The translations under genes and the position numbers were made by a program. Positions 35,142-51,667 of a stretch of 64,000 nt of DNA are shown here, piece by piece (the stretch's first letter is position 1; each line of letters starts with the position of its first letter). Source of the DNA: Reinekea blandensis MED297 (lineage in GTDB: Bacteria; Pseudomonadota; Gammaproteobacteria; Pseudomonadales; Natronospirillaceae); the NCBI RefSeq assembly GCF_000153185.1, contig NZ_CH724151.1:325154-389153 (forward strand), written 5' to 3'. The notes beneath the pieces were generated by a model. The model saw only the letters and a program-made list of their open reading frames with translations, was not told the DNA's origin and did not search any database.

Positions 35142-35225
35142 TACCGATCAATCCTGTTTGCTGAAAAGCGCTTACCATGACATCTGTTTCAATCCGTCAG
35201 AATGGAATCAGACTCAGGATTGCCT

Positions 35226-36383: not shown

Positions 36384-36648
36384 TACCCTGCATTACCAAT
36401 GGCTATTCGGCTCTCGCCGAACGCTTGCTGAGTCGTTGATGCTGCTAATGGCGTCTGGCTATGCGCTGATGTTGCCTGGATTGCTGATTCACATCGTGCT
36501 GACCAAGCGCATCAAAAACCCTCATTGGTTGGCCTTGCTGTATGCCTTGTTACCAATACTCGTATTGCGTCCTCCTGTGACTTTTGCTGCCGCCTGGCTC
36601 ATCGCCTTCGCTTTTTTTGTTATGGCCAGCAAGAGGGTTCTGAAATGA
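36283..36648 (+). CDS. Small three-helix membrane protein
   Basis: 121 residues from GTG 36283 preceded by CAGGGATTC. It has three hydrophobic segments (about 6-28, 50-73, 82-115), with SRRTLAESL and LTKRIKNPHW as polar loops. No family is recognised. It overlaps the previous gene by 101 bases and shares an ATGA with the next, so it is coupled to the exported protease. It may be a membrane partner of that protease or an exosortase-locus accessory. No in-frame ATG occurs before the second helix, which supports the GTG start. Confidence 0.6.
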   Translation: MFIRTFLPHLFIGAITIALYTGLTLLPDVILGLNTLHYQWLFGSRRTLAESLMLLMASGYALMLPGLLIHIVLTKRIKNPHWLALLYALLPILVLRPPVTFAAAWLIAFAFFVMASKRVLK

Positions 36649-38084
36649 ATCGACTCTTACTGTTAGCGTCCTGTTTAATGAGCCTGGCACACGCACAAAA
36701 CACAGCAGTCATCATCGGAGGCGGTCACGAACCACTGGCAAATGAAGCCGCCCTGGAGCGCACCTTTTCAGGCTATCAAGAGGCGGCGCAACAACTGAGT
36801 ATTGAACGTGTCACAGCGCTGTTTGCTGACGGTACAGAATCATCATACGCCATCCGAAACGACGACACCCGATGGGTCACCCGCCAATCGGATCCTTTGG
36901 GCCTGGTGCTGTACCCAGATGATCTGCGTCCGGGCACTTTCCGGCCAACCCAACTCGGCTCGATTCAACCAGCAACCAAAGCAAATGTGCTGACGGCCTT
37001 GAACGAAGCGCTTCAACCAACGGCTGACATGCAATCGGCGTTACTGATTTTCAGCGGGCATGGGCAAAAATCCGCAAGAGCACAAAATAATGCGCTTCGC
37101 CTATGGCACGATGACCGCTTTACGACCAACGAGCTCCATCAACTTACCTCGAACAGCACGGCTTCGGTAACACGCTTCATTGCATCTCATTGCTACTCCG
37201 GAAGTTTCCATGACGCTGCGCTAACCATGAGTTTGCAACCGGACGCTCACGGGGCTGCACCTATGTGTGGCTTTACCTCAGTGCCACGTTGGGATCTTAC
37301 CGAGGAATGCACGGCTGCCGTGCAATCTCAGACTTATCAGGAGTATGGGCTGGACCTGATGCAGCAAGTCTCACGATCAGCAACGACGAACCTGAGTTTT
37401 GATTTAAACAACGATCAACAACTTTCGCTGTACGAAGCCCACCTAACGGTTATCAGCACGATGCAGGACCGCATGGATTTACCATTGTCATCCAGTGAAG
37501 CCTATCTGCTCGATTCAGAACACTGGTATGAACAGTGGTCTCTTCAGCCCCGGTATATCGCAAGCAACCCGTACTACCGTCTTGTTCAACGGCTATCAAC
37601 GCCAATGGAAGCCGCCATCGGCACGGCAGATTATTTCCGTGAACTTAATCAAAAACTGACCGCAGCCACAGAAGCTCAGGCGCAGGCTGCGCGTGTAGAG
37701 TACGACAATATGGACGGGGCGGTACTTTTACGAAGAAAGATCCACAACGACTTGCTGCTGTCCTGGCCACAACTAGCCGCGCCGGCGTCACCCGCGGCAC
37801 GGCAGTTACTGGGCACACGCGGTGACGAGGTTCGACGGTGGTTGTTAAACCACCCCGACCTATCTCAACTTTACGACTATGAAACTCGATCTGCTGAGCT
37901 TTCCGAACAGTGGATAAAGGCAACACGTGAACTGGCTGGTTTGCGTCGCCTGCACCAGAGCTGGCAACTGGCCAATCGATACGAGCAGGTTATGAACGGA
38001 CGTGCAGAACAAAAACAGCAGTATCTCAGTCTTCGTCGCTGTGAAAACTGGACGCCGACGCTGAAGGCGCCGTTCGGTCAGTGA
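36645..38084 (+). CDS. Exported caspase-like (clan CD) cysteine peptidase
   Basis: 479 residues from ATG 36645, overlapping the upstream stop by 4 bases. The signal peptide ends near SLAHA-QN; the short hydrophobic stretch before ASC makes lipidation less likely. The catalytic pair of clan CD is visible: His139 in LLIFSGHGQ and Cys183 in FIASHCYSGSF, each after a predicted beta strand and 44 residues apart, as in legumain/caspase-like families. The C-terminal ~200 residues are helical. It is probably a periplasmic or extracellular protease cutting after Arg, Asn or Asp; substrate unknown. Confidence 0.72.
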   Translation: MNRLLLLASCLMSLAHAQNTAVIIGGGHEPLANEAALERTFSGYQEAAQQLSIERVTALFADGTESSYAIRNDDTRWVTRQSDPLGLVLYPDDLRPGTFRPTQLGSIQPATKANVLTALNEALQPTADMQSALLIFSGHGQKSARAQNNALRLWHDDRFTTNELHQLTSNSTASVTRFIASHCYSGSFHDAALTMSLQPDAHGAAPMCGFTSVPRWDLTEECTAAVQSQTYQEYGLDLMQQVSRSATTNLSFDLNNDQQLSLYEAHLTVISTMQDRMDLPLSSSEAYLLDSEHWYEQWSLQPRYIASNPYYRLVQRLSTPMEAAIGTADYFRELNQKLTAATEAQAQAARVEYDNMDGAVLLRRKIHNDLLLSWPQLAAPASPAARQLLGTRGDEVRRWLLNHPDLSQLYDYETRSAELSEQWIKATRELAGLRRLHQSWQLANRYEQVMNGRAEQKQQYLSLRRCENWTPTLKAPFGQ

Positions 38085-38242: not shown

Positions 38243-38482
38243 ATGTCAATGGATCGAATCCGCGCTATCGTTGCGCAAACCGTCAAGCTCTCCAAAGATA
38301 TTTCCGACATCAGCGACAATGACGACCTTTACTCTCTGGGGTTAACTTCGCTGACAACTGTCAACCTGATGCTCTCTATCGAAGACGAGTTCGACATCGA
38401 ATTCGACGACAACATGCTGTCACGACAAACGTTTGAAAGCATCACATCACTCGCCGAGGCTATCGACGAACTCCAGGACTGA
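38243..38482 (+). CDS. Acyl/peptidyl carrier protein 1
   Basis: 79-residue carrier protein. Ser36 in LYSLGLTSLTTVNLML is the predicted phosphopantetheine site. The motif reads GLTSL rather than the GxDSL of fatty-acid ACP. Acidic helices II-III (SIEDEFDIEFDDNM) are typical. It is the first gene of the nine-gene unit and is followed 17 bases later by an acyl-CoA dehydrogenase-like gene, so it most likely carries the substrate of that flavoprotein. A phosphopantetheinyl transferase from elsewhere in the genome would be needed. Confidence 0.9.
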   Translation: MSMDRIRAIVAQTVKLSKDISDISDNDDLYSLGLTSLTTVNLMLSIEDEFDIEFDDNMLSRQTFESITSLAEAIDELQD

Positions 38483-38499
38483 GACATAAGGACACGCAC

Positions 38500-39678
38500 A
38501 TGGAAGCGCTCGCACAACGAACCTTTGAAGATATTAAAGCCACCCTTCACAAACTGGGCACCGATGTTGTCGCACCGGCGGCAATACTGGTTGACCAAGA
38601 CGCTCGGTTTCCGGAAGAAGCCTTTGCGGCTTTTCGCGAACATCAGCTGCTGTCTACTTACATTCCACAAGAGTTTGGTGGCGACGGCCTGAGCATTAGT
38701 CAGATCTGCGAGCTGTGTCGAATTCTGGGTTCCTATTGTGGATCGACGGCGATGATTTTCGCCATGCATCAAATCCAGGTGGCCTGTATTGTTCACCACG
38801 CTGGCGGCAGCGAGTATTTCCGACAGTTCATGGCTCGGATTCATAGCGAACAGCTGTTGCTGGCATCCGCCACAACAGAAATCGGTGTGGGTGGCGATTT
38901 ACGCTCAAGCATCTGTCACGTCGATGTTGCCGACGATGGCAACTTCACTCTCGAGAAGAAAGCGCCGGTCATTTCCTATGCCCTGAATGCCGATGCCATT
39001 CTGGTCACCTGCCGCACCAACGCCGAAGCGCCGGCCAGTGATCAGGTTCAGGTTGTCCTCAATAAAGGACAGTACGAACTTGAACCCATCAGCGGCTGGG
39101 ACACCATGGGTTTTCGTGGGACCTGCAGCTCAGGGTTTGTCATCAAAGGCACCGGACATAAAGATCAGATTCAGCCAATGCCGTTCTCGCAGATTCTCGC
39201 CCACTCCATGCATCCGGTATCCCATCTGACCTGGGGTTCGTTGTGGACTGGGCTGGCTCAGGGTGCGGTTAACAAAGCCCGTCAATCGGTCCGCGATATG
39301 ATGCGCCGTTCCAATGAGCTGCCTCAGATTACCGCAACACGACTCGCTGAACTCGACGAAGTCATGTTCAGCATGAAAGGCGGCCTGTTCAGCGCTCTTG
39401 AGGAATATCAGGATATTCTCGACAGCGGTAATCTGTTCCGGGCGGAAAAATACGGATTTTCCATTCAGGTCAACAATGTCAAAACCCGATGCTCAGAAAT
39501 GATCGTAGATATCATCAGCCGAGCCATGTTAATCGTAGGCATTGGCGGTTATCGAAATGATGGTAAGTACAGTCTCTGCCGCGAGCTTCGTGATGCCTAT
39601 GGCGCTGCATTAATGGTCAACAATGATCGTATCCGCGGACACAACGCGACGATGCAGGTTGCCATCCGGGAAAGCTAA
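38500..39678 (+). CDS. Acyl-CoA dehydrogenase-like flavoprotein
   Basis: 392 residues with the ACAD layout: N-terminal helices with FPEEAFAAFREHQLL and IPQEFGGDGL, the central FAD/substrate segment LLASATTEIGVGG and the C-terminal helical bundle. In normal ACADs the catalytic Glu lies in YEGT close to the end. Here the equivalent stretch after RDAYGAAL reads MVNNDRIRG, with no Glu, and the alternative helix-G Glu is also not evident. It may be a carrier-bound-acyl oxidase or flavin hydroxylase (the family includes HpaB/DszC types). It lies directly after an ACP, as in PltE or FkbI-type pathways. Confidence 0.8.
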   Translation: MEALAQRTFEDIKATLHKLGTDVVAPAAILVDQDARFPEEAFAAFREHQLLSTYIPQEFGGDGLSISQICELCRILGSYCGSTAMIFAMHQIQVACIVHHAGGSEYFRQFMARIHSEQLLLASATTEIGVGGDLRSSICHVDVADDGNFTLEKKAPVISYALNADAILVTCRTNAEAPASDQVQVVLNKGQYELEPISGWDTMGFRGTCSSGFVIKGTGHKDQIQPMPFSQILAHSMHPVSHLTWGSLWTGLAQGAVNKARQSVRDMMRRSNELPQITATRLAELDEVMFSMKGGLFSALEEYQDILDSGNLFRAEKYGFSIQVNNVKTRCSEMIVDIISRAMLIVGIGGYRNDGKYSLCRELRDAYGAALMVNNDRIRGHNATMQVAIRES

Positions 39679-39707
39679 CAACTCGAAATAACGAAACGGA
39701 TTTTGTT

Positions 39708-40685
39708 ATGCCAAGTGTAAGAACATTGGACGTTCAGGCCTATAGGCCGCATGCCATTCACGGCGCAGATCGCATCTGGGCCGAAACCAACTGCTACGTC
39801 GATGTGGTTCTGGAACTGATTCACGCGTTAGGATTTGAGCCCATCGCAGCATTGCCGTTTACGTTGTCCATCAGCTACGAAGGCGATCAATGGACATTTT
39901 TCAAGTTCCCGCCGTTCGATCTTTTTGACCTGTACGGCCTGGAGCTTCAGGAATTGAACCCCTGGAACAATCTGGCAGAACATATTGAAACTCAAGTCTC
40001 GCTCGGGCGGCCGGTTCTGGTTGAACTGGACTCATGTTATCTGCCGGATACACAGGGGACCACTTACCGACATGAGCATGTTAAATCGACCGTTGCGGTG
40101 AACTTCATTGACCGTCAGCAAAAACGTCTGGGCTACTTTCATGGCCAGTCGTATTACGAACTCGACGGTGACGATTTTGATTTGGTTCTGCAAACAGAAG
40201 GCCTCGTACACGAGCGCATGTTACCGCCCTATATTGAACTGGTGAAATGCCATCGAACGGCAGAGGAAGCCAACGCGGCTCTGGTTGAACGATCGATTGA
40301 TGCTTTGCGTCGACAACTTCGTTACCTGCCGGCCAGCAACCCGTTCTCGTCTTTTGCGGTGCAGTTTGAGAAACAATTACCAGATATCAAAGCCAAGGGG
40401 TTGGAGCATTTTCATCAGTACTCGTTTGCCACCTTACGTCAGTTTGGTGCCTGTTACGAGCTGAGCGCAACCTATTTGAAATGGCTGACCGAGAAGACCT
40501 CGAAAGACTTCAGCCTGGCCGAACAGAACTTCCTAGACATCAGCCAGGGAGCTAAAACGCTGCAGTTTCAACTGGCACGTGCAGTGGCCCGCAACCGTGA
40601 TATTGATCTGAGACCTCTGCAGGTCATGGCTGAACTCTGGCAGCAGGCGATCGACTCGATTAAAACGCAGGTGGCGGCGCTGTGA
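39708..40685 (+). CDS. DUF1839 family protein, possible BtrH-like acyltransferase
   Basis: 325 residues matching my recollection of DUF1839, a family found beside ACP and GH2 genes. The N-terminal ~200 residues contain Cys29 in ETNCYVDVVLELIHALGFEP and a later HEHVKSTVAVNFID with hydrophobic strands. This C-then-H layout recalls BtrH, which moves an acyl group from a carrier protein to an aminoglycoside. It has no signal peptide. Context: right after ACP and the flavoprotein, overlapping the GH2 gene by 4 bases. It may transfer the carrier-bound group to a sugar amine. The fold assignment is by eye and tentative. Confidence 0.65.
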   Translation: MPSVRTLDVQAYRPHAIHGADRIWAETNCYVDVVLELIHALGFEPIAALPFTLSISYEGDQWTFFKFPPFDLFDLYGLELQELNPWNNLAEHIETQVSLGRPVLVELDSCYLPDTQGTTYRHEHVKSTVAVNFIDRQQKRLGYFHGQSYYELDGDDFDLVLQTEGLVHERMLPPYIELVKCHRTAEEANAALVERSIDALRRQLRYLPASNPFSSFAVQFEKQLPDIKAKGLEHFHQYSFATLRQFGACYELSATYLKWLTEKTSKDFSLAEQNFLDISQGAKTLQFQLARAVARNRDIDLRPLQVMAELWQQAIDSIKTQVAAL

Positions 40686-43096
40686 ACGACCAGCAGACAC
40701 CGATACAAACCTGGTTCATTACTGGTTTTACGCCTGACATCGATCAGGGCGTCTGTCAGATCGAAGCAGACTATGCCGCGCCGGTGAACAAGCTGTTTCC
40801 CGATCGCCAGGATCATCAGGCACTCATCTGGCATTACGAAACCCGCCTGACGCTGCCGGCCCCGGTCACTGTGGAATTTCCACGGTTGTCACCTCTGTGT
40901 CAGGTGCACTGCAACGATGTTGTTCTGGGTTCTGCTAACAATGCCTTCCACCCGCATCGATTTGCTTTGCCGGACTCCGAATCGGGCCAGTACCATATTC
41001 GCCTGGTCTTTAATGCCATTGATGCCTTCCTGGCACAGCGACAACCGAGACCAACATGGAAGACCGCGCTGGCTAACAACAATCTCCGGTCTTTACGCAC
41101 GGGATTGCTCGGTGCTATTCCCGGCTGGGCCAATGACGGCATTGCGATTGGCGTATTGGACAACCCGGTTGTCATAGCAGAAACCAATCTTTGCCACAGG
41201 GTCTCAATCGTTCCGGAGTTCCGAAACAATGAAGCCCAGTTAAAAGTGGCAAGCCTGGTGGCGGAGCTGGCCGTTAAACAGGTAACCGTGCGCCACCAAG
41301 GACAGGTTTTAGCTCAGGAAAATCTATCCGATACCGTGACCACCACAATATCCCTAGGTCCATTAGCGCCCTGGTGGCCTCACACCCATGGCAAACCCAT
41401 CCGCCATCTACTGGACATCGAGATAGTCACGTCCGCCGGTACCTTAACGATCACCAAAACATTGGGGTTTAAGTCGGTAGAACTGTCATCCCTACAGTCA
41501 CCAACGTTTCACATTAACCAAGAACCGACGTTTTTGCGTGGTGCCTGTTGGACGAGTTCAGACTATCCTGAACACGGATTTAATGAAGCCAAAACACGGC
41601 AAGTGTTAGAACAGGCGCGTCACATAGGTTTTAACGTCATACGCATCAGTGGTCCAATGCCCTATGAAGTCGAGACATTCTACGATATCTGTGACGAGCT
41701 TGGGCTTTTGGTCTGGCAAGATTTCAGTTTCGCCAACTTTGACTACCCAAATGATGCGGAGTTTCTCGACAATGTCATGACTGAGACCGCTTACCAGGTA
41801 CAGCGGTTAAGCGGACACGTCAGCCTACTGACTTTTTGTGGGAACAGTGAGGTGGAACAACAGGGCGCTATGGCGGGCGCAGCTCTGGATCAGTTGGCGC
41901 ATTCACTGTTCCATCAGCATTTACCTGAACAGGTGGCCTCATTGGCTTCGGCCATCCCTTATGTTCCATCCTCACCATTTGGCGGCATTGTGCCCTTTCA
42001 GACGGACCAGGGGTTTAGTCACTATTTTGGCTATGGAGCTTATCTGCAACCAGAATCCGATCTGGTCCTGGCCGATGTGAAGTTTGCTTCGGAATGCCTG
42101 GGCCTGTCACATGTCCCCGAAGAAACGTTCTGTAAACACCATTTCCAATCGCCCAACCCGGCACCGCATTTACCAAAATGGAAAAACGGCGTGTCACGGG
42201 ATGCTGCGACCGGTTGGGATTTTGAAGACATCCGGGATCACTATCTGGGTGAATACTTTCAAGTCAATGTCGCAGACTTACGCGCACGCGATCTGGAACG
42301 TTACCACCAGTACAGCCGTGTACTGACGGGTTACATGATGACCCGCGCCTATAATTATTGGCGCTCCAGTACTTCGGCTTGCTCTGGCGCGATCAGTTGG
42401 TGGCTGAATGATTTAAAACCGGGCGCTGGCTGGGGGATTATCGACAGTGACGGTCAGCCTAAACCAGCCGCTCACATTCTGGCGAGGCAACTGCAGCCGT
42501 TACATGTCGGCTTGCTCAATCAGGGGCTTAACGGGATGGCCGTCAGCCTGATCAATGAGCGCCGGGAATCGGTCTGCGCAAACTTGACCGTCATGTGTTT
42601 GCATTCCGGTCGAAATACTCAGATGGCCGAATCACTGACGTTAACATTAGCCCCTCAATCGAACCAGGTCATGTCGCTCAATCAGCTGTTCAACCGATTC
42701 ATCGATTCCACAAATAGGTATCGATTTGGCGCGCAATCCTTTGATGTGATTGCCGTGGCTCTGGAGTTTGACGGCGAAACCGTCACAGATGCAGCCTTTC
42801 CTTCAGGCCTGAATCTGCCAACACATTTTAATCCAGAAAGTCTGACGTTGGAGGGTCATCTGAATGTCCGAGACGGCCATAGCGAACTGAACATTACGGC
42901 CAACCAGGTGGTCAGCTTTGCCGATGTCCAAGTTCGTAAGCATAGGGTTTGGAATAACTATCAGACGCTGCTGCCCGGCATCCCAGCCTGTTTCCGATTG
43001 GAGGGACCGGTTCAGGGCGATCTCAACATCGTTGTCAGTGGTTTAAACCTGGCGTTTCGATCCCGGCTGAACATTCCTGGAGCTGACCATGAATGA
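40682..43096 (+). CDS. Glycoside hydrolase family 2-like (beta-mannosidase type)
   Basis: 804 residues. An N-terminal jelly-roll (to about 180) is followed by an Ig-like domain and a TIM barrel with GACWTSSDYPEHG and LVWQDFSF. Both catalytic Glu residues appear intact: acid/base Glu390 in FCGNSEVEQQ and nucleophile Glu471 in KFASECLGL. A C-terminal beta-rich part follows. No signal peptide, so it is probably cytoplasmic. The family cleaves beta-mannosides or beta-glucosaminides. In an assembly operon it may trim or turn over a glycan or glycolipid intermediate. It overlaps neighbours at both ends (4 and 8 bases). Confidence 0.85.
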   Translation: MNDQQTPIQTWFITGFTPDIDQGVCQIEADYAAPVNKLFPDRQDHQALIWHYETRLTLPAPVTVEFPRLSPLCQVHCNDVVLGSANNAFHPHRFALPDSESGQYHIRLVFNAIDAFLAQRQPRPTWKTALANNNLRSLRTGLLGAIPGWANDGIAIGVLDNPVVIAETNLCHRVSIVPEFRNNEAQLKVASLVAELAVKQVTVRHQGQVLAQENLSDTVTTTISLGPLAPWWPHTHGKPIRHLLDIEIVTSAGTLTITKTLGFKSVELSSLQSPTFHINQEPTFLRGACWTSSDYPEHGFNEAKTRQVLEQARHIGFNVIRISGPMPYEVETFYDICDELGLLVWQDFSFANFDYPNDAEFLDNVMTETAYQVQRLSGHVSLLTFCGNSEVEQQGAMAGAALDQLAHSLFHQHLPEQVASLASAIPYVPSSPFGGIVPFQTDQGFSHYFGYGAYLQPESDLVLADVKFASECLGLSHVPEETFCKHHFQSPNPAPHLPKWKNGVSRDAATGWDFEDIRDHYLGEYFQVNVADLRARDLERYHQYSRVLTGYMMTRAYNYWRSSTSACSGAISWWLNDLKPGAGWGIIDSDGQPKPAAHILARQLQPLHVGLLNQGLNGMAVSLINERRESVCANLTVMCLHSGRNTQMAESLTLTLAPQSNQVMSLNQLFNRFIDSTNRYRFGAQSFDVIAVALEFDGETVTDAAFPSGLNLPTHFNPESLTLEGHLNVRDGHSELNITANQVVSFADVQVRKHRVWNNYQTLLPGIPACFRLEGPVQGDLNIVVSGLNLAFRSRLNIPGADHE

Positions 43097-44768
43097 ACGG
43101 CAACTGCCTGGGTGGTTTGCTACCGATGCCAACCGGCTGTTTCACTGGTACCTGGAATCGGAAGAGTCCGCTCGAGCGTTGGTCGTACTGATCCCGCCAC
43201 TCGGCCATGAAGCTTTCCACAGTCATCGGTTTTATCGTTTACTGGCGGATGAATGTCAGCGTAACGGCTTTGATGTCATCCGCTTTGACCTCCCTGGCCA
43301 TGGTGACTCAACCGGCGACCTGGCAGATCCGGCTTGTCACGTCTCCTGGCTATCTGACATCCAACAACTGATTCAGCACTATCGTCAGGATCGTCCCCTG
43401 ATCGTTGGCGGTTTACGGTTTGGCGCCAACCTAGCGTCGATGATTCAAGCAGACCATTACCTGCTAATTGAACCGGTTTTATCCCCCAAGCGGTACGTCC
43501 GGGAAATCAGTGTTTCTGCACGCATCGGCGCGTCTGACAGCGGTGACTCCATAGGCGTTGAGTCGGGCGGTTACACCTACACTCAAGCATTACTCGATTG
43601 GATAAAGTCCAGTGATACCCAATTTGCTTCCGGGCAGGCCAGCGGTCAAATCATTCTGAGTCAACCCGATCGGCTGAAGTCAGCTTTCGGCAACTTACCC
43701 TCACTCGAAGTTGATTCGGCTACCGGCCTCGATGGTTTGCTAGCCGAACCACAATACTCTGATATTCCTGACGGGTTATTCGGTCAGGTTTTAGGCCCGT
43801 TACTTGATTGGCCAGCACACATGGCGCCGGTAAACCTACCGGCCCCCGATCGGGCTATTGAGGAAACGGAGTGGACTGAATCCTGCTATCAGGACAGCAT
43901 CGGCCAGTTTGGCATTCTCTGCGAACCTTCTGAATGCCAGCATAACAATGTGTTGGTGTTTTTAAACTCGGGCAGTGGTCCGCATACCGGCCCTAACCGT
44001 TTATACGTCGAGCTTTGTCGCACCTTAGCAACGCATGGCATCCGCACCCTTCGAGTCGATATTAAAAACCTGGGTGACAGCGCGAACATTGAAACTGAAC
44101 AGGAAAATCATTGCTATCCCCATCGCGCAACTGAATATTGCAATGCGCTGTTAACCGATCTTTCTGAGCATGAATGGGCACAGCACATTTCTCTGGCGGG
44201 TATTTGTTCCGGCGCCCATCACGCGTTCCACAGTGGCGTCGCCGGTCATCCGAAGTTAAGTCAATTGATTCTGATTAATCCACTGACTTTTTACTGGCAC
44301 GAAGGAATGTCACTGGCCACACCGACGGAACAACAGGTGACGGTTGATTCGCATTATTACGCGCGCACCCTGCGCAGCGGTGCCGCCTGGAAAAAACTGT
44401 TTTCCGGCAAAGTAGACTACAGCTACATCGCCAAGTTTGCATTTCGCTTCGGCATTAAAAAAGCCGGCGCTTCGATTGGCGCGCTGAAGCGATTGGTCGC
44501 CCCGGTCCCAGCCAATCAATTTACACGGGACTTAGCAGTACTGAAACAACGTGGTATTGAGACCAGCCTGATTATTGCAGAATATGATCCCGGCTGGGGG
44601 TTGCTAAACGATGCCAGCCAAATGAAACCCTCGTCCGTGTTTGCGAGATTCCCGGTCAAAGGGCTGACGATACCTAAAGCGAACCACACCTTTTCGAAAC
44701 GATCGACAAGACCGCTGCTGGTCGAGGCACTCGTCAGCAGCCTGCAGCAAGCGGAGGTCAGCCCATGA
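43089..44768 (+). CDS. Tandem alpha/beta-hydrolase, exosortase-A hydrolase fusion, copy 1
   Basis: 559 residues made of two alpha/beta-hydrolase domains. Domain 1 (about 15-240) has LIPPLGHEAFHSHR and VIRFDLPGHGDSTG, but the nucleophile elbow reads GLRFG (108-112), with Arg instead of Ser, like exosortase-A hydrolase 2 as I recall it. Domain 2 (about 275-550) has LNSGSGPHTGPNRLY, TLRVDIKNLGDSAN and the elbow GICSG with Cys373 in place of Ser, like exosortase-A hydrolase 1. A Cys elbow suggests a thioester-type reaction. It may release or transfer carrier-bound acyl groups. The two-family assignment is from memory. Confidence 0.72.
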   Translation: MNERQLPGWFATDANRLFHWYLESEESARALVVLIPPLGHEAFHSHRFYRLLADECQRNGFDVIRFDLPGHGDSTGDLADPACHVSWLSDIQQLIQHYRQDRPLIVGGLRFGANLASMIQADHYLLIEPVLSPKRYVREISVSARIGASDSGDSIGVESGGYTYTQALLDWIKSSDTQFASGQASGQIILSQPDRLKSAFGNLPSLEVDSATGLDGLLAEPQYSDIPDGLFGQVLGPLLDWPAHMAPVNLPAPDRAIEETEWTESCYQDSIGQFGILCEPSECQHNNVLVFLNSGSGPHTGPNRLYVELCRTLATHGIRTLRVDIKNLGDSANIETEQENHCYPHRATEYCNALLTDLSEHEWAQHISLAGICSGAHHAFHSGVAGHPKLSQLILINPLTFYWHEGMSLATPTEQQVTVDSHYYARTLRSGAAWKKLFSGKVDYSYIAKFAFRFGIKKAGASIGALKRLVAPVPANQFTRDLAVLKQRGIETSLIIAEYDPGWGLLNDASQMKPSSVFARFPVKGLTIPKANHTFSKRSTRPLLVEALVSSLQQAEVSP

Positions 44769-45898
44769 CAACCCGTGCTTACATCTATTTGTTCAATAAC
44801 CAGCCTACCTTTCTGCGGCACCGATATGCAGAGTTGGATTTGTTCCGGTTTATTGCCGCCATGATGGTCCTGCTCTATCACTTCACGGCGAGTGGCGTCG
44901 GCAATACCATGCACGCTGATCGTTATAACTTAATTGCAACCAACAGCCTGTTCCCAACTTTAACCGAGGCCACCCGATTTGGTTTTCTGGGCGTAAACCT
45001 GTTTTTTATGATCAGCGGCTTTATCATTTTCGCCTCGGCGTCTTCACGCTCGGCCGTTAACTTTGCAGTGAACCGGGCGATCCGTTTGTACCCTACCTAC
45101 TGGCTCTCTATTCTGTTTACCCTGGCCGTGCTTTATGGATTTCTGGGCACCAACTTTAGTTTGCCGTTAAAAGACATCATCTTAAACCTGACGATGATTC
45201 AACCTTATCTGGGTGTCGGGCATCTTGATCCAGTCTATTGGACGCTCGTAGTTGAACTTCATTTTTATTTTCTGGTGTTCTTTCTGCTGCTGGCAAACCA
45301 AATTAAAGCATGGCGGTTCTGGCTCACTCTGTGGCTAGTGATGAGTTGGGCATACGTGCTCACCGGTCAACCATTTTTTTACGCCTATCTGTTTGATGCC
45401 CAGTATGCGGGATACTTTATTGCCGGAATTTTGTTCTGTACTCACTATAAACAGCGCTGGGACTATTGGTCTTTAGTGATGCTTTGCGGAGCTTTTTTAT
45501 TGTGCCTGTACAGCTTGCCACAACAGGTTGCTCTGTATAACGCGGGAGAGGCCTCGATTTCGATGATCATTACCGGCGATCTCATCATCACCGGTCTATT
45601 TGCTGCGTTCGCGCTCTTTTCCAGCGGTCGGGTAACCTTGTCCAGCCATCCAACCCTGATTTTACTTGGTGCGATGACTTATCCACTGTATCTGACACAT
45701 CATCAGTTTGGCCGCTACCTGATCGACCGAGTCGCCCCCATGATTGGGAGCCACGCCAGTGTCATTCTGGCAATCGTACTGTCATTAGCCATTGCCTATA
45801 TTTTTGTCATCATCATTGACCGAAATATAACACCGGCTCTTAAAACCCTATCCGGAAAACTGTTCACCCTTAAACCCACTCGTAAGGAAGCGATATGA
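44765..45898 (+). CDS. Acyltransferase-3 family membrane protein
   Basis: 377 residues with about ten membrane helices. The N-terminal RYAELDLFRFIAAMMVLLYHF holds the conserved Arg/His of the AT3 (OafA/NodX) family, and LGVNLFFMISGFIIF is the second signature. No SGNH domain is fused at the C-terminus; the separate SGNH lipoprotein at 49464 could serve that role. It moves an acyl group across the inner membrane onto a sugar. Between a hydrolase and an ACP gene, it is the likely terminal acyltransferase of the decoration pathway. Confidence 0.88.
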   Translation: MTTRAYIYLFNNQPTFLRHRYAELDLFRFIAAMMVLLYHFTASGVGNTMHADRYNLIATNSLFPTLTEATRFGFLGVNLFFMISGFIIFASASSRSAVNFAVNRAIRLYPTYWLSILFTLAVLYGFLGTNFSLPLKDIILNLTMIQPYLGVGHLDPVYWTLVVELHFYFLVFFLLLANQIKAWRFWLTLWLVMSWAYVLTGQPFFYAYLFDAQYAGYFIAGILFCTHYKQRWDYWSLVMLCGAFLLCLYSLPQQVALYNAGEASISMIITGDLIITGLFAAFALFSSGRVTLSSHPTLILLGAMTYPLYLTHHQFGRYLIDRVAPMIGSHASVILAIVLSLAIAYIFVIIIDRNITPALKTLSGKLFTLKPTRKEAI

Positions 45899-46134
45899 CC
45901 AAATCCGATATTGAATCGATCCTATTAGAGATTTTCGAAAGTCTGTTCCCTCAAGTCGCGTCAGAACAGTTACCGCAGTTGAAACAGACCGATATCGAGC
46001 AATGGGATTCTATGGCTCAGGTCAATCTCATCGCGGCCATTGAAGGCGAGTTCGATCTGGTCATCGACATCGATTCTGCATCAAAACTGCAGTCATTCGA
46101 CGAATGCGTGCAGTACGTGCACGGCCAGGTCTGA
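45895..46134 (+). CDS. Acyl/peptidyl carrier protein 2
   Basis: 79-residue carrier with phosphopantetheine site Ser39 in IEQWDSMAQVNLI. The WDSM form is common in carriers that pair with FkbH-type enzymes. It overlaps the acyltransferase by 4 bases and is 9 bases before the FkbH-like gene, so it is the probable glyceryl or hydroxyacyl carrier of that enzyme. It differs clearly from carrier 1 (GLTSL), suggesting separate partners. Confidence 0.88.
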   Translation: MTKSDIESILLEIFESLFPQVASEQLPQLKQTDIEQWDSMAQVNLIAAIEGEFDLVIDIDSASKLQSFDECVQYVHGQV

Positions 46135-46143
46135 GGTCAGATC

Positions 46144-47775
46144 ATGAAGTATTTGGAGGCGGTTCGAACTCTAAAAGGGTTGAAGGAAACCGCAGACACT
46201 ACGTCCGTGTTGATTGCCTCCTCTTTTCAGAGTGAAGCCTGGAACCTGTATATTCAAGCGTTCTATGCCCGCCAGGGTGTTCGCGCTCAGGTTTCACACC
46301 TGCCATTCGGATCTCTTCAGCAACACGCCCGCAGCACCGGGTTAAGCGATAACAAGACGCTGTTGCTTTTAGCACCCTGGGATTTTTTCCCAAAGTGGGA
46401 TTGGCGAATGGGCTACGATCAGGGGCTAGACTCACTTGATTCTATTTTATCGACGGTAGAGGACAATGCCGCAGCGATCCTGTCATGCCATCCTGAAGGC
46501 CTGTTGTATGTTGATGCGCCGGTTCGCCCTCTCTTCAGCCAACCCGAAGATGAACTGCCTATTCACGCAGCTATTCATCAGGCACTTAACAGCGCCAAAT
46601 GTCCCAAAGCCCTATGTTCCGCTGCGGACATTGACCTGTATCTACAAACCGGCCAGCTGCTCAACGGTCATCAAATTGGGGACGCCATCGATCACTACAT
46701 TCGCGCCGATGACGAGTTCCGGCTTGCAGGAAAAAAGCTGATTGTCACGGATTTAGACAACACACTTTGGGCGGGCGTTATCGGAGAAGATGGCCCTGAA
46801 GGCATCGCTTACCAGAATCACGACCGGGGCTACCCGCATTACCTTTATCAGTCTCTGCTCAAACAGCTGAAGGCTTCGGGCGCCCTGATCGCAGCGGTGA
46901 GCAAAAATGACCCTGATCTCGCCGAGTTGCCCTTTGTGCAAGGCGGCATGAGTCTTAACAAAACAGATATGGTAACGATCACCGCCAGCTACGAGGCAAA
47001 GTCAGCACAAATTCTCGCTTTGTCCGAACAACTCGATTTACCGACCAGCAGCTTTGTATTTGTCGATGACAATCCAGTTGAACTGGAAGAGGTCCGACAG
47101 GCGTTGCCCGATGTGGAGATATTGCACTTTAAAGCGAATGCGGCCGATTTGAGCCGCCTGCTACAGTGCTTGCTGAAACATTTTCCGAGATCCATCCACA
47201 CGCAGGAAGACAGCGATCGGACCCGACTTTATCAAACCCGGTTAAAAGGTCAGATACATCGACCTGCTCAGGGCAGCGATCTGACCAAATACCTGAAGTC
47301 GCTGAACATGACGCTGAAGATTTCAGAGCGTGGATCCGATGATTACCAACGTGCACTTCAGTTAATAAATAAAACCAATCAGTTCAATTTGAATGGACTG
47401 AGGCTGACCGAGGATCAACTGCGCTCAGAGCTTGCATCCGGCGCACAACTTTGGACGGCTGAACTGACTGATCAACATGGCAGTCACGGCGAAGTCATCA
47501 GTTGTCTGATAAAAGGCAGTCGGATCAGTCATTTGGTTATGTCCTGCCGGGTACTTAACCGGGATGCAGAGTACGCCTTTATCCATGCCATTAAAACTCG
47601 GCAATCGGATCAATCTCTCAACTTTGATTTTCAGGCGACTGAACGCAATACACCCATGCAAAAATTTATTGGTGCCATAACCGATAACGGAGTCCTAAGT
47701 GTTGATAACTCCGTTCAAGAAAAACTCAACAAAGCATCTTCTTTATTTACGGTGGCCTTCAGTCATGGCAGTTAA
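46144..47775 (+). CDS. FkbH-like HAD-IIIC enzyme
   Basis: 543 residues. The HAD phosphatase motif I is Asp203-LDNT in LIVTDLDNTLWAGVIGEDG; motif FVFVDDNPVELEEV follows. The C-terminal GNAT-like end includes NKTNQFNLNGLRL, the FkbH-family signature. FkbH enzymes dephosphorylate 1,3-bisphosphoglycerate and load D-glyceryl onto a partner ACP for polyketide extender units. Here there is no polyketide synthase, so the glyceryl-ACP, or a product derived from it, may decorate a glycan. It is directly preceded by carrier 2. The next gene starts inside its last 11 bases. Confidence 0.85.
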   Translation: MKYLEAVRTLKGLKETADTTSVLIASSFQSEAWNLYIQAFYARQGVRAQVSHLPFGSLQQHARSTGLSDNKTLLLLAPWDFFPKWDWRMGYDQGLDSLDSILSTVEDNAAAILSCHPEGLLYVDAPVRPLFSQPEDELPIHAAIHQALNSAKCPKALCSAADIDLYLQTGQLLNGHQIGDAIDHYIRADDEFRLAGKKLIVTDLDNTLWAGVIGEDGPEGIAYQNHDRGYPHYLYQSLLKQLKASGALIAAVSKNDPDLAELPFVQGGMSLNKTDMVTITASYEAKSAQILALSEQLDLPTSSFVFVDDNPVELEEVRQALPDVEILHFKANAADLSRLLQCLLKHFPRSIHTQEDSDRTRLYQTRLKGQIHRPAQGSDLTKYLKSLNMTLKISERGSDDYQRALQLINKTNQFNLNGLRLTEDQLRSELASGAQLWTAELTDQHGSHGEVISCLIKGSRISHLVMSCRVLNRDAEYAFIHAIKTRQSDQSLNFDFQATERNTPMQKFIGAITDNGVLSVDNSVQEKLNKASSLFTVAFSHGS

Positions 47776-49528
47776 TCAGTTCCACGGTTGGGTAAACGCT
47801 GGCCAACATTCTATTTTCGTATCGGAGTTCTTGCCTGAAAACGGCAACAGTCGAGGCAACGTTATTATTGCCCCACCCTTCGGGCCGGAATATATGCATT
47901 GTAAAGCGTCGATACGAAAGCTGTGTTTTCAATTGGCTCAGGCAGGCTTTAGTACAATAAGTTTCGATTGGCCAGGGTACGGTAACAGCACGGGTCGCTT
48001 ACCCGAGCCGCAATGGCTGCAATGCGCACAGGAATGTCTAACACAAATGATACAAACCCTGAGTGATAAAAGCGGTACACCGCCATCACTTATTTGTCTC
48101 AGAAGTGCGTCCCTACCGGCGATAGAGGTTGCCAATGGCAGCCCGTTGAACCATTTATTTTTTTGGTATCCCTATACTCAGGGTAAAGCCCTTATTCGCG
48201 ATTTTCAGTTAATTGATCACGCCATGAGGGTCTCGCCGGATCACGATACTCTGACCGCCGGCGGATATCCGCTGGCCCAATCCGAAGTTGAGAGCATCGA
48301 AACGCTAGCGATGACTCAGCTCTCACCATCGGCGTGCACCAGCGTATTTACCATTCACAGTCCGGAAGCCAAACGTCTGGCGTATCAAACGGCGCTAAAA
48401 GAGCAGAACATACCCTTTTCTTCGGTTGTCTCGACCGAACTTCGCGCGATGGCACGACAGGCAGAGTTGTCCACCCCGCCGGAAACCGATATGCAGTGCA
48501 TTGTTCAAACCTTACTGAATAATCCGGCAACGTCCGGCTATGTTGACCGGCTGTCGCAACCTGAGCTGATTTCGGATCAATGGCGAGAGCGTGTGGTTAA
48601 ATATGGGCCATGGACTGGCTTTGGCATTTTATCTGAACCGAATGAGCCCTCATCGATACAGGATTGCCTCGTCATTCCCAATACCGGCTCCGGTCATCAT
48701 TGTGGCCCTAACGGACTTCATACCCGTTTGGCTCGTGAACTCTGCCAACAAGGCATCGCCGCCATGCGGTTTGATCTTCGACACCTGGGCAACAGTGGTA
48801 TCCAGCCGAACGATAACCGTACTGATGCCTATTGTTCGCATGCTGGTGAAGATGTCGGACAGGTGGTTTCTGCACTAACCAACGAGGGTTATCAGCGCCC
48901 TTCGCTGTTTGGCATCTGCGCCGGAGCCCACAGTTGCTTCCAGTACCTGACCCGCCAACATCCCCTTCATTCGTTGGGCAATATTTTCCTGGTCAATCCT
49001 AATACGCTGTACTGGGCTGAGGGGGACGATGCCTGGCAACCGGAAAAAAACAACGATGAGCATGAAGCGCACTATCATCGGCAGCAGGCAACCAATGTCC
49101 ACGCTTGGCTCAATCTGCTGAAATCGCCGTCGAAATGGGCACGCATTGCCGAAGTCGCGGTTACGCGGGCATTCTCAATACTGAAACGTTTAGTTCGATC
49201 TGGTGATAAAACTCAAAATAGGTTTGTAGAGGATTGTCGTACTTTCCTGAACGCTGCACAGTCACTTTACTTTATCTTCTCACCCGATGAGCCGGGGGAA
49301 CAGATTCTTGAAGCTAAAGGAGGGGCTCAGCTTAAACAGCTGGGTCGGCAAAGTCAGATGCACTGGTTGCAACTGATCAACGGCGATCATACCTTTACCA
49401 CCACAGCCGACCGTGACGAGCTAATAAGAGTTATCCGATCGGCCTTTACCGATGCCTCGCCGATTAAAAAACCGACTCAAAAGCGGGCTGCCACTGTGTC
49501 AGCCATTGCTGGTAACCGTATGGGCTGA
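47765..49528 (+). CDS. Tandem alpha/beta-hydrolase, exosortase-A hydrolase fusion, copy 2
   Basis: 587 residues from ATG 47765; an earlier in-frame start at 47699 would overlap FkbH by 77 bases. It is built like the protein at 43089. Domain 1 has VIIAPPFGPEYMHC and TISFDWPGYGNSTG, with a degenerate elbow CLRSA instead of GxSxG. Domain 2 has IPNTGSGHHCGPNGLH, AMRFDLRHLGNSG and the elbow GICAG with Cys385. The two fused hydrolases are paralogs. The last 65 bases overlap the convergent SGNH lipoprotein gene. Confidence 0.72.
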   Translation: MAVNQFHGWVNAGQHSIFVSEFLPENGNSRGNVIIAPPFGPEYMHCKASIRKLCFQLAQAGFSTISFDWPGYGNSTGRLPEPQWLQCAQECLTQMIQTLSDKSGTPPSLICLRSASLPAIEVANGSPLNHLFFWYPYTQGKALIRDFQLIDHAMRVSPDHDTLTAGGYPLAQSEVESIETLAMTQLSPSACTSVFTIHSPEAKRLAYQTALKEQNIPFSSVVSTELRAMARQAELSTPPETDMQCIVQTLLNNPATSGYVDRLSQPELISDQWRERVVKYGPWTGFGILSEPNEPSSIQDCLVIPNTGSGHHCGPNGLHTRLARELCQQGIAAMRFDLRHLGNSGIQPNDNRTDAYCSHAGEDVGQVVSALTNEGYQRPSLFGICAGAHSCFQYLTRQHPLHSLGNIFLVNPNTLYWAEGDDAWQPEKNNDEHEAHYHRQQATNVHAWLNLLKSPSKWARIAEVAVTRAFSILKRLVRSGDKTQNRFVEDCRTFLNAAQSLYFIFSPDEPGEQILEAKGGAQLKQLGRQSQMHWLQLINGDHTFTTTADRDELIRVIRSAFTDASPIKKPTQKRAATVSAIAGNRMG

Positions 49529-50135
49529 AGTGAATACCATCGTCTTGGTAAAATTCAGAGTTGAGGTAGAAACTTGAGCTTTCCATCGGCGCCATCGGTG
49601 GAACTAAGCGGACATGCTCGCTATCAGCATAGACCTTCTGAAGGCGTCGATTCAAATCCAGTAATTCTTCATTAAAGCCCTTAAACCCTTTGTCGCGCGA
49701 CAAGGGGTTTAACAAAGCTAAAAGAAAAGTCTTCTCCGGATACTGATCGGTCAGCTCCTGAATCTGCTTAACGGTTGTTCGGTTGGAAACGTTTTGAGCT
49801 ACGTTATTTGTGCCGAGGCTCAAAGCAATAATGTCGGCTTGCCGAACGGTCTGATAATCGCTCATGCGCTGTCGAATGGCATATACAGTATCGCCACGAA
49901 TCCCCAGGTTTATCGCGGGTACCGGTAATTGTTCGATGTCCATAAACTCAAAATGACTGTCTCCCAGCAGCACCAAGTCGACGTCCTCAGACTGACGGTC
50001 ATTGGCCAATAGCAATGGCATGCGCTTTTCTGCATGTTCGTCAAACATCGGATCTCGAAGCACCATACTGTCCGACGACTCGCACGAAGTCATCAGAAAC
50101 ATCGCAATCATGGTGGTCAACAGCACACGAATCAT
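49464..50135 (-). CDS. SGNH/GDSL hydrolase lipoprotein
   Basis: 223 residues. Lipobox FLMTSC gives Cys18. SGNH blocks are complete: LLGDSHFEF (catalytic Ser), INLGIRGD (Gly), SLGTNNVAQ (Asn) and DDGIHFSPYGY (Asp/His). It is an outer-envelope esterase or acyltransferase. SGNH proteins often work with AT3 acyltransferases to O-acylate polysaccharides, so it may be the periplasmic partner of the AT3 at 44765. It overlaps the ligase upstream by 4 bases (ATGA), making it the last gene of the minus EPS operon. Confidence 0.85.
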   Translation of the reverse strand: MIRVLLTTMIAMFLMTSCESSDSMVLRDPMFDEHAEKRMPLLLANDRQSEDVDLVLLGDSHFEFMDIEQLPVPAINLGIRGDTVYAIRQRMSDYQTVRQADIIALSLGTNNVAQNVSNRTTVKQIQELTDQYPEKTFLLALLNPLSRDKGFKGFNEELLDLNRRLQKVYADSEHVRLVPPMAPMESSSFYLNSEFYQDDGIHFSPYGYQQWLTQWQPAFESVF

Positions 50136-51667
50136 GACAGTTCCTTAACCAGCTGCAGTGTCTGTTTCCGATCGTATTTTCCGTTAGGTGTACGAGGCAT
50201 GTCATCAGAACAATAACGAACCACCGTCGGTATCATATAAGGGGGTAGCAAGGTTTGCATAATGGAAGTTAACTCTCTTTGTTCCAACGTCTCCGTGGGT
50301 TTGATCAGAGCTCCAATAAAATCATCGCCATTGGTAATAGACTGACCAAAAACCACAACCACTTCCGATAGTTTCTCATTGGTCAACAGTCGGGATTCAA
50401 TCTCACCCAGTTCAATCCGATAGCCGAGGTACTTTATCTGATTGTCTTTGCGGCCAATAAAATGAAAGTTACCGTCAGCATCAATATCGACAATATCACC
50501 GGTACAGTAGAGAGCATCCGGATACAGATTATGATTGGGGTTCTGAATAAAGACGGCTGAGGTTTTATCCGGGTCATTCAAGTAACCATAGGAAACCGCA
50601 TTACCACGAACAAGTAGTTCACCGCGAGCACCGGGTTCAGAAAGTAACTCGCCAGACTCTGTTCTGACAAACAGGCTCATATTATGCCGCGGTTTGCCGA
50701 TGGGCACACTGGTACAGTCGACCTCGGGTATCTCAGTAAAGGTGTGAAAACTGCAATCGACCGTAATTTCGGTCGGTCCATACATGTTAGTAAAGGTAAT
50801 GTGCGGATACAGCAGCATCCATTCTCGAAGCACCTGAGGCGGCAATGCCTCACCAGCCGCGAGTATGTGGCGCAGTGCTGGGAACGAATCCTCTTTGAGA
50901 CGTCGCGATTTCAGCAACATCGTCAACACGGATGGGACACAAAAGAAAACGCTGATCTGACTCGCGTTCAACCATTTGATCATTCTCGGTAGCACCGCAT
51001 TCAAAGACTCTGGTACCAAATGCAACGTGGCACCGGCCTTGAATGCTGTATAAATATCGAAGGTCGAATTATCAAAGTAAAGCGGCGCATGATTAGCAAC
51101 CTGATCGTCAGCGTTGATGCCATAGTTATCAACGCACCAATCAATATAATCGACAATTGCCCGGTGCGGGATCATTACGCCCTTGGGCACTCCAGTTGAG
51201 CCGGACGTAAACAACACATACGCCAGGTCGATAGACAGTACATCGGGAGGCACAAACGCTGGTGCCGTCGATGGCAACTTCTGTACATTCACTATCTGAC
51301 AGTCAGAATTTGTCAATGCTTGGCGAACCATCGCTTCGGTCTCGTCAACAACGAGTACAACACCGGCTGAAGCCGCATCAACAATGGACGCTAACCGAGC
51401 CGCCGGGCTGTTGGTATCAATCGGAATATAAGCCTGACCACTTTTCATTATGGCCAATAACGCACAGATAGCCTCTATGGACTTCGGTATCACGAATGGG
51501 ACAAATGCATCCTGCGGCCGCTTAAAATGAGACAGGTGCGCTGCCAAGGCGACTGCACGTTCATTCAACGCCTGATAAGAAATTACATCCTCTGCACACC
51601 GAACCGCTGGCTTGTCCGGGTATCGTTCAGCAGATTGTTCAAAGTATTGCAGTGCATTACTGATCAT
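50132..51667 (-). CDS. AMP-forming amino acid/acyl ligase (adenylation enzyme)
   Basis: 511-residue stand-alone adenylation enzyme resembling exosortase-A-associated ligase (TIGR03098) and DltA. Core motifs: A3 LFTSGSTGVPKG (152-163), A4/A5 YFDNSTFDIY with Asp199, MYGPTEITVD, A7 YCTGDIV, A8 GRKDNQIKYLGYRIELGEIE and the A10 lysine Lys497 in NGKYDRK. Asp199 aligns with Asp235 of GrsA, which binds an alpha-amino group, so an amino acid is the likely substrate. It probably loads one of the two carriers. It has a 65-base gap to the beta-barrel gene upstream. Confidence 0.85.
   Translation of the reverse strand: MISNALQYFEQSAERYPDKPAVRCAEDVISYQALNERAVALAAHLSHFKRPQDAFVPFVIPKSIEAICALLAIMKSGQAYIPIDTNSPAARLASIVDAASAGVVLVVDETEAMVRQALTNSDCQIVNVQKLPSTAPAFVPPDVLSIDLAYVLFTSGSTGVPKGVMIPHRAIVDYIDWCVDNYGINADDQVANHAPLYFDNSTFDIYTAFKAGATLHLVPESLNAVLPRMIKWLNASQISVFFCVPSVLTMLLKSRRLKEDSFPALRHILAAGEALPPQVLREWMLLYPHITFTNMYGPTEITVDCSFHTFTEIPEVDCTSVPIGKPRHNMSLFVRTESGELLSEPGARGELLVRGNAVSYGYLNDPDKTSAVFIQNPNHNLYPDALYCTGDIVDIDADGNFHFIGRKDNQIKYLGYRIELGEIESRLLTNEKLSEVVVVFGQSITNGDDFIGALIKPTETLEQRELTSIMQTLLPPYMIPTVVRYCSDDMPRTPNGKYDRKQTLQLVKELS

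Follow-up and report, generated by a model that had tools for sequence, protein, structure and literature searches.

A window of 64,000 nucleotides from the genome of Reinekea blandensis MED297 (contig NZ_CH724151.1) carries, at positions 38243-51667, a set of 11 genes that combines two acyl carrier proteins (ACPs) with an adenylation enzyme, a flavoprotein, hydrolases and acyltransferases. Nine of these genes lie nearly contiguously on the plus strand (38243-49528, ACP1 to HYD-B in the order of Table 1), and the genes for an SGNH lipoprotein and a stand-alone adenylation enzyme (LIG) lie on the minus strand. The tight packing described in an initial annotation of this DNA was borne out, with plus-strand intergenic gaps of -8 to +29 and a final junction (FkbH/HYD-B) of -77, where an alternative HYD-B ATG at 47765 reduces the overlap to 11, and with a 4-base overlap between the SGNH and LIG genes. 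Family scans agreed with the labels given in that annotation, whose named genes are all present at about the places it gave; its gene list was correct, but an open reading frame (ORF) of 804 aa at 40682-43096 had been left unnamed. The scans also agreed with it in detecting no polyketide synthase (PKS) or nonribosomal peptide synthetase (NRPS) module among the 11 ORFs, LIG being a lone adenylation enzyme. The genes comprise a core that is widespread in bacteria and an add-on that is rare, and we propose that the core is probably a carrier-protein aminoacylation cassette in which LIG has replaced the usual loading enzyme.

Table 1. Genes at positions 38243-51667 of the window (scores are for family models)
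Gene	Positions	Strand	Features
ACP1	38243..38482	+	Core carrier; GLTSL motif, Ser36; PF00550; NF005480/PRK07081
ACAD-fold (acyl-CoA dehydrogenase) flavoprotein	38500..39678	+	Core; PF02771; model pLDDT (predicted local distance difference test) 93.2
DUF1839	39708..40685	+	PF08893, 382.5 bits; Cys29/Thr128/His145; model pLDDT 93.8
GH2 (glycoside hydrolase family 2) beta-mannosidase-like glycosidase	40682..43096	+	Core; 804 aa; GTG start; beta-mannosidase 5n6u, E 8.5e-40
HYD-A	43089..44768	+	Fused hydrolase; TIGR03101-like and TIGR03100-like halves, both under cut-offs
AT3 membrane acyltransferase	44765..45898	+	Add-on; PF01757, 88.6 bits
ACP2	45895..46134	+	Add-on, second carrier; WDSM motif, Ser39 (6/6); ACP matches all under cut-offs
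FkbH-like HAD-IIIC enzyme	46144..47775	+	TIGR01686, 212.2 bits over cut-off of 146.65
HYD-B	47699..49528	+	Second fused hydrolase; probable start 47765; TIGR03100/TIGR03101 under cut-off; GICAGAH and CLRSAS motifs
SGNH lipoprotein	49464..50135	-	PF13472, 55.1 bits; lipobox-like LMTSC (by eye)
LIG	50132..51667	-	Stand-alone NRPS-type adenylation enzyme; PF00501; TIGR01733, 364.8 bits over cut-off of 317.4 (PF00501 also over cut-off)

To map the distribution of these genes, genome_contigs was scanned with the DUF1839 protein of the window, which returned 79 loci, and the ORFs of the loci were clustered. Loci were found in Pseudomonadota, Planctomycetota, Acidobacteriota, Chloroflexota, Actinomycetota, Myxococcota, Gemmatimonadota and Abditibacteriota, with a recurring order of ACP1, ACAD, an unlabelled gene of ~309 aa, DUF1839, GH2 and HYD. 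The one member of the unlabelled family that was searched matched a solved Bll0957-type 'Amino acid--[acyl-carrier-protein] ligase 1' with 250 bits, and by this similarity the gene that usually stands between ACAD and DUF1839 is a seryl-tRNA synthetase (SerRS)-like amino acid:[carrier protein] ligase (aaCPL). Locus counts were made after removal of L020 and L023, which are the same places as L025 and L064. The 79 genome_contigs loci contained ACAD in 76, aaCPL in 68 and GH2 in 75. Across 83 distinct loci, several with losses at contig ends, ACP1 was found in 76, ACAD in 80, aaCPL in 70, GH2 in 79 and HYD in 61; the corresponding numbers for the 41 loci of at least 20 kb were 41, 41, 35, 40 and 34. 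An independent draw of 398 genomes of the phylum contained DUF1839 in 16, the window genome included, and ACP1, ACAD, aaCPL, DUF1839 and GH2 were each present at all 15 of the other loci (HYD at 9). The ACAD, DUF1839 and GH2 genes of the window keep the order seen in aaCPL-bearing loci. This recurrence of the same neighbours in distant phyla supports the co-occurrence that the initial annotation had offered as a check on its reading, and it does so for the core; FkbH and ACP2 were each found at just 3 of the 79 loci, a draw not chosen by FkbH. The idea of a carrier-based decoration tied to polysaccharide genes is therefore retained, but not that of a single module, and the window set is two things, a widespread core and a rare add-on.

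Two apparent gene families or fusions were rejected during clustering. Long DUF1839 frames (L027, L071 and others) and long aaCPL frames (L185, L191, L192 and L194) resembled fused genes; no ORF held two of the domains, and these are accordingly read as open upstream frames. Cluster c13 was read as antisense frames over aaCPL, since all 7 members are encoded on the other strand, immediately ahead of DUF1839, at loci that later proved to contain aaCPL. Some genomes carry more than one DUF1839: locus L184 (G752) has one in the core and another on the opposite strand, and G680 has two matches. The DUF1839 of L031, recorded as from a Klebsiella pneumoniae metagenome-assembled genome (MAG), groups with uncultured proteobacterial and deltaproteobacterial rows and possibly comes from a misnamed bin.

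The loading enzyme is where the window departs from this pattern. The aaCPL profile (A2) had no match in the window genome, including between ACAD and DUF1839. Of the 14 genomes without aaCPL at the locus, 13 showed no match genome-wide, and G425 had a single weak partial match (E 2.7e-39). An ortholog of LIG is present in 12 of these 14 genomes (52-59% identity, E < 1e-165). No ortholog was found in 18 aaCPL-bearing genomes (G071, G203 and 16 hand-chosen among aaCPL-bearing loci; best match 37%, E 2.6e-88) or in the 15 further aaCPL-bearing genomes of the 398-genome draw (best match 35%). Fisher's test of 12/14 against 0/33 gives 1.7e-9, a value that is not a true probability since the genomes are related. 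In a search of 369 genomes of the class, with at most 4 candidates scored per genome, LIG was detected at E <= 1e-100 in 2, both with DUF1839 and without aaCPL, and DUF1839 in 4; among 57 relatives LIG was present in 4, exactly the 4 with DUF1839. Mapped onto the tree of DUF1839, the 'no aaCPL' label requires 5 changes, 5 of them forced by starred branches, compared with 13.2 in shuffles, and L064, L074 and L079, whose genomes have LIG, are placed among aaCPL-bearing rows. At some loci LIG is physically linked to the core or to ACP1: in L147 it comes after the core in the same orientation, in L143 it is immediately upstream of ACP1-ACAD, and in L145 its neighbour is an ACP1 copy. Within the stretches fetched, neither ACP2 nor FkbH was found at L064, L074, L079 and L096, although these genomes have LIG, which indicates that LIG tracks the ACP1 core and not ACP2. 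From the mutual exclusion of LIG and aaCPL in the genomes searched and the at least five label changes on the tree, we are fairly confident that LIG replaces aaCPL as the loader of ACP1. If this is right, the adenylation pocket would offer an independent handle on the amino acid used. Read by motif position, the pocket code of the window LIG is DNFFLAMVDK; 11 distinct LIGs have the code DNFF[LI]AMVDK and two (L145 and L146) DNLLISMVDK. The leading Asp fits an alpha-amino acid.

Several further observations concern the loading enzymes. The genome of L145 (G427) holds LIG paralogs at 6537-8081 (-) and 15925-17445 (+), with codes DNLLISMVDK and DNFFIAMVDK, one of them beside an extra ACP1 copy. 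The aaCPL-like match of G425 (locus L106) is divergent and forms part of a longer frame; its neighbour is, by eye, a GT2-like ORF, and the core cassette lies elsewhere. On that stretch no core gene besides aaCPL was recognised with confidence. A Gemmatimonadota cassette, L028 (G423), had neither aaCPL nor a LIG ortholog genome-wide, and its sister row L030 has aaCPL; L028 may use a third loader or derive from an incomplete MAG. A ligase adjoining the L079 cassette was rejected as a LIG ortholog at only 22% identity, that genome's ortholog being elsewhere.

A candidate for the transfer step is DUF1839. This family has been classed among papain-like folds (PMC10318531), its residues being arranged as Cys-Thr/Ser-His. 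In the aligned relatives Cys29 (82/82) and His145 (82/82) are invariant and position 128 is Thr in 81 and Ser in 1. A structure search with the predicted model returned 18 PDB matches at E <= 0.001, and all 18 were AziU3/U2, CtaG or CcbD, with alignments of 323-372 columns (near full length) and TM-scores of 0.53-0.62. CtaG and AziU3 are natural-product enzymes. CcbD, as described in PMC12945683, takes proline tethered to a carrier protein, loads it on a Cys and releases it by attack of a sugar amino group. With the CcbD/CtaG/AziU3 type DUF1839 shares this predicted fold and a candidate catalytic Cys (Cys29), and we infer from the predicted model and the residue conservation that it is a papain-like, carrier-dependent condensing enzyme.

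ACP1 scored 104.7 bits against NF005480/PRK07081 (cut-off 72), and Ser36 is kept in 72 of 72 aligned sequences. In the ACAD-fold protein the C-terminal stretch where the catalytic Glu usually sits reads MVNNDRI; Asn375 within it is present in 81 of 89 rows, a few of which are relatives from outside cassettes. Its 50 best Foldseek matches are a mix of DszC/TdsC, acyl-CoA dehydrogenases, KijD3, DnmZ and ColB1, a dehydrogenase of carrier-tethered cysteine, and the protein is probably an oxidase/monooxygenase or a dehydrogenase of a carrier-bound amino acid. The GH2-like protein had no match in the Pfam scan and no hydrophobic N-terminal signal seen by eye; Glu471 is conserved in 79 of 79 rows with a letter at this position and Glu390 in 72 of 79 (Asp in 5, Gln in 2), which we assume to be nucleophile and acid/base. 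In the fused hydrolase the nucleophile position of the TIGR03101-like N-terminal half is Arg110 in 67 of 68 rows; the TIGR03100-like C-terminal half has the GxCxG Cys373 in 65 of 67 (Ser in 2) and His533 in 65 of 65 rows with a letter. HYD was absent among the genes found in four Ktedonobacteraceae loci (L090-L093), where a gene of cluster c29, whose scanned member is a PF00975 thioesterase, adjoins GH2; a thioesterase in this place fits a role of HYD on thioesters.

The surroundings are an exosortase A (XrtA) EPS locus, as initially annotated. The flanks contain exosortase, FemAB, amidotransferase-like, glycosyltransferase, O-ligase-like, chain-length, tyrosine kinase, Wza-like and EpsB_2 genes, several of which are assigned with scores under their model cut-offs. 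Three XrtA-associated models were over cut-off, TIGR03019 (FemAB), TIGR03007 (chain-length) and TIGR03013 (EpsB_2), and the exosortase is over TIGR02602 and under XrtA's own TIGR03109 (164.1 against 208). It is the single exosortase match of a 4.53-Mb assembly in 10 contigs with an estimated completeness of 96.8%. Across genomes, wcaJ-like sugar-transferase genes were present at 12 of 79 loci against an expectation of 0.57 derived from the frequency of PF02397 in 20 genomes (42 in ~98.8 Mb), an enrichment of ~20-fold (P 1.5e-12) in which loci were counted by clustering with the window gene and the background by the PF02397 model. Among 118 flank ORFs (a random draw from 236 at 75 loci) there were 5 with a GT1 domain, 3 with PF02397, 3 with GT2 and 4 with Acetyltransf_6; none of these was among the best 25 of 173 families in 118 control ORFs drawn from 183. 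This contrast is weakened by the probable presence of spurious frames among the flank ORFs. Adjacent to the cassette, just upstream of ACP1, the ORF at 36525-38084 (+) has FSGHGQ and ASHCYSG motifs, caspase-like by eye, and no NCBIfam match; a relative is present in L025. The NCBIfam scan of 35202-36383 was also without a match. Cluster c16 occurs near cassettes in L020, L021, L022, L025, L041 and L077 and is an Acetyltransf_6 (GNAT/FemAB-like) protein in the two members for which a scan was shown, L077 and L021.

ACP2 and FkbH occur together in the window, L018, L019, L025 (Reinekea; the same place as L020), L021, L032 and L039, of which L018-L020 had been fetched on account of FkbH. AT3 lies near them in the window, L018, L019 and L032, and in L021 as cluster c11; none was seen in L020/L025 or L039. 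A block with AT3, ACP2, FkbH and a second HYD recurs in L018, L019 and L032. The FkbH HAD residues Asp203, Asp205, Asp308 and Asp309 are kept in 9 of 9 sequences, and ACP2 ends 9 bases upstream of this gene, so that the FkbH domain adjoins a carrier. Glyceryl is the known cargo of FkbH enzymes. By family resemblance the window protein is probably the loader of ACP2, presumably with glyceryl. In the SGNH lipoprotein Ser60, Asp199 and His202 are conserved across 4 aligned rows; the pair of AT3 and SGNH proteins is, to us, reminiscent of a two-part O-acyl transfer, and the lipoprotein is a possible partner in outer acyl transfer or deacylation. The add-on is the weakest part of the model, and a glyceryl decoration made by it is a tentative suggestion that we would sooner doubt than accept.

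We favor, with moderate confidence, a model in which the core performs N-aminoacylation of an EPS amino sugar. LIG would adenylate an amino acid and load it on holo-ACP1, the task of aaCPL in most relatives, and the carrier-bound residue would then be oxidised by the ACAD-fold flavoprotein. The aminoacyl group would be taken over by Cys29 of DUF1839 and passed to the sugar amino group in the manner of CcbD, the acceptor being either a precursor of the XrtA-locus EPS or one of its lipid-linked units. The fused Cys-type hydrolase may edit or assist on carrier thioesters, and the GH2 enzyme may trim or transfer the glycan. In the add-on, FkbH would load ACP2, and AT3, perhaps with the SGNH lipoprotein, would move the group outward as a second decoration. 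The gene identities, their conserved linkage, the exclusivity of LIG and aaCPL among the genomes searched, and the predicted fold and invariant residues of DUF1839 are observations, from which the reactions, their order, the amino acid and the acceptor are deduced. A wider generalization is plausible though tentative: that surface amino-sugar N-aminoacylation is the job of aminoacyl-tRNA synthetase (aaRS)-like carrier-protein ligases, that an aaRS relative and an NRPS adenylation enzyme have been swapped repeatedly on the same carrier, and that the FkbH-ACP-AT3 set gives this lineage a second decoration. If this holds, the cassette defines a widespread means of decorating polysaccharides with amino acids, and carrier loading is a point where ribosomal and nonribosomal activation cross directly.

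Several results weigh against this model. The DUF1839 fold matches have just 10-14% identity and root-mean-square deviations of 5.7-6.9, and the arrangement of Thr128 followed by His145 differs from the Cys-His-Glu triad of CcbD and from the canonical Cys-His-acid order. Matches to the ACAD model fit a monooxygenase as well as a dehydrogenase. The analysis brought no sugar acceptor to light, and most of the 118 sampled flank ORFs were without a polysaccharide family. Two MAGs, G423 (L028) and G425 (L036), have neither aaCPL at the locus nor a LIG ortholog, and in 4 of the 12 LIG genomes (G346, G426, G428 and G429) the stretch fetched around LIG was without the core. The LIG pocket code is not known to match any described code.

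The cassette might instead make a diffusible aminoacyl amino-sugar metabolite comparable to the lincosamides, in which case its position in EPS loci would arise since such loci gather sugar enzymes. The exclusively natural-product character of the 18 significant DUF1839 fold matches would suit this explanation, as would the cytoplasmic appearance of the core proteins (by eye), the thioesterase next to GH2 in the Ktedonobacteraceae loci and a phosphopantetheinyl transferase (PPTase) cluster, c15, identified from one scanned member, whose genes adjoin ACP1 in 6 loci and are 3.4 kb from it in L098. We nevertheless consider it unlikely in view of the ~20-fold enrichment of sugar-transferase genes at the loci and of the sole PF02397 match of the window genome, which lies ~4 kb beyond LIG. 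Liposaccharide genes were also found in such neighbourhoods in a 2010 note (PMC2922099).

A single Dlt-like pathway that employs the ligase, FkbH, AT3 and the two carriers jointly to place one group on the polysaccharide would explain the close packing of the plus-strand genes, the recurrence of the AT3-ACP2-FkbH-HYD block and the DltA models among the top NCBIfam matches of LIG. This explanation is very unlikely given the rarity of FkbH and ACP2, the LIG genomes in which neither was found within the cassette stretch fetched, the sub-cut-off DltA and DltC scores and an acyltransferase that is not of the membrane-bound O-acyltransferase (MBOAT) type. It is also improbable that LIG is unrelated to ACP1 and matches the aaCPL-less genomes by chance, through EPS loci that related lineages have in common. 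Most aaCPL-less rows do lie on one branch of the DUF1839 tree, and the four LIG stretches without a core point the same way; the five label changes, the LIG genomes placed among aaCPL-bearing rows and the linkage of LIG to the core or to ACP1 in L147, L143 and L145 argue otherwise, and the 365 class genomes without DUF1839 had no LIG at E <= 1e-100 with at most 4 candidates scored in each. Replacement of aaCPL by LIG on ACP1 accordingly remains our preferred reading, within an aminoacylation cassette that acts on EPS.

Comparison with known systems places the core in a context that the initial annotation had missed, that of the amino acid:[carrier protein] ligase neighbourhood, reportedly noted by Mocibob in 2010. 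A note added in proof (PMC2922099) describes SerRS paralogs whose neighbours are liposaccharide genes, an ACP, a redox enzyme, a glycosidase and a conserved ORF (Atu2574), and predicts that such neighbourhoods attach an amino acid to an amino sugar of the cell surface. Atu2574 is likely a DUF1839 protein. The window shares with the 2010 neighbourhood a cognate PRK07081-type ACP, the redox enzyme, conserved ORF and glycosidase in order and the polysaccharide context; it differs in having a stand-alone adenylation enzyme where aaCPL was not found and in the added FkbH-ACP2-AT3 genes and fused hydrolases. Solved structures of these ligases exist (structure database match), and a 2022 review (PMC9437257) still called the role of the carrier-bound amino acid unknown. 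The core idea is thus already in print, and what is new here is the replacement by LIG, the fold link of DUF1839, the spread of the cassette, the fused hydrolase and the FkbH add-on. Replacement of aaCPL by an adenylation enzyme was not reported in the titles and opening abstract lines listed for papers on these ligases, DUF1839, exosortases, FkbH with polysaccharide, glyceryl in gellan and CcbD/LmbD, none of which was searched for with that swap in mind.

Other systems resemble parts of the set. Dlt D-alanylation, the logic invoked in the initial annotation, is shared in outline as an adenylation enzyme, a carrier and a membrane acyltransferase, but membership is not supported: LIG reached 323.6 and 305.3 bits against DltA cut-offs of 476 and 559.85 and ACP1 23.5 against 68 for DltC, AT3 (PF01757) stands in place of the MBOAT protein DltB, and the putative condensing enzyme DUF1839 looks cytoplasmic. 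The exosortase-A ligase/hydrolase set (TIGR03098, TIGR03100 and TIGR03101) has in common the XrtA locus and related hydrolases, whereas LIG scored 246.4 bits against a TIGR03098 cut-off of 592.35 and the window hydrolases are fused and under cut-off. N-acyl amino acid synthases associated with PEP-CTERM/exosortase systems (in a paper cited by PMC11631085) and an OafA-family acyltransferase needed for another EPS (PMC11340318) have no bearing on this gene set. BtrH, an ACP:aminoglycoside acyltransferase, is likewise papain-like and carrier-dependent in its transfer to an aminoglycoside (PMC10318531); it belongs to another family of the superfamily and is not among the best 50 fold matches of DUF1839. 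A chemical parallel is the lincosamide synthetase (CcbC/CcbZ-CP/CcbD; PMC4351081 and PMC12945683), whose parts include a stand-alone adenylation enzyme, a carrier and a Cys condensing enzyme, with CcbD as a fold match. It differs from the window in the 12% identity of DUF1839 to CcbD chains, the swapped Thr/His triad, the ACAD and GH2 partners and a context of antibiotic rather than polysaccharide synthesis. With a natural swap of the loader and a DUF1839 protein that has a structural parallel of known chemistry, the locus offers a test of the 2010 prediction.

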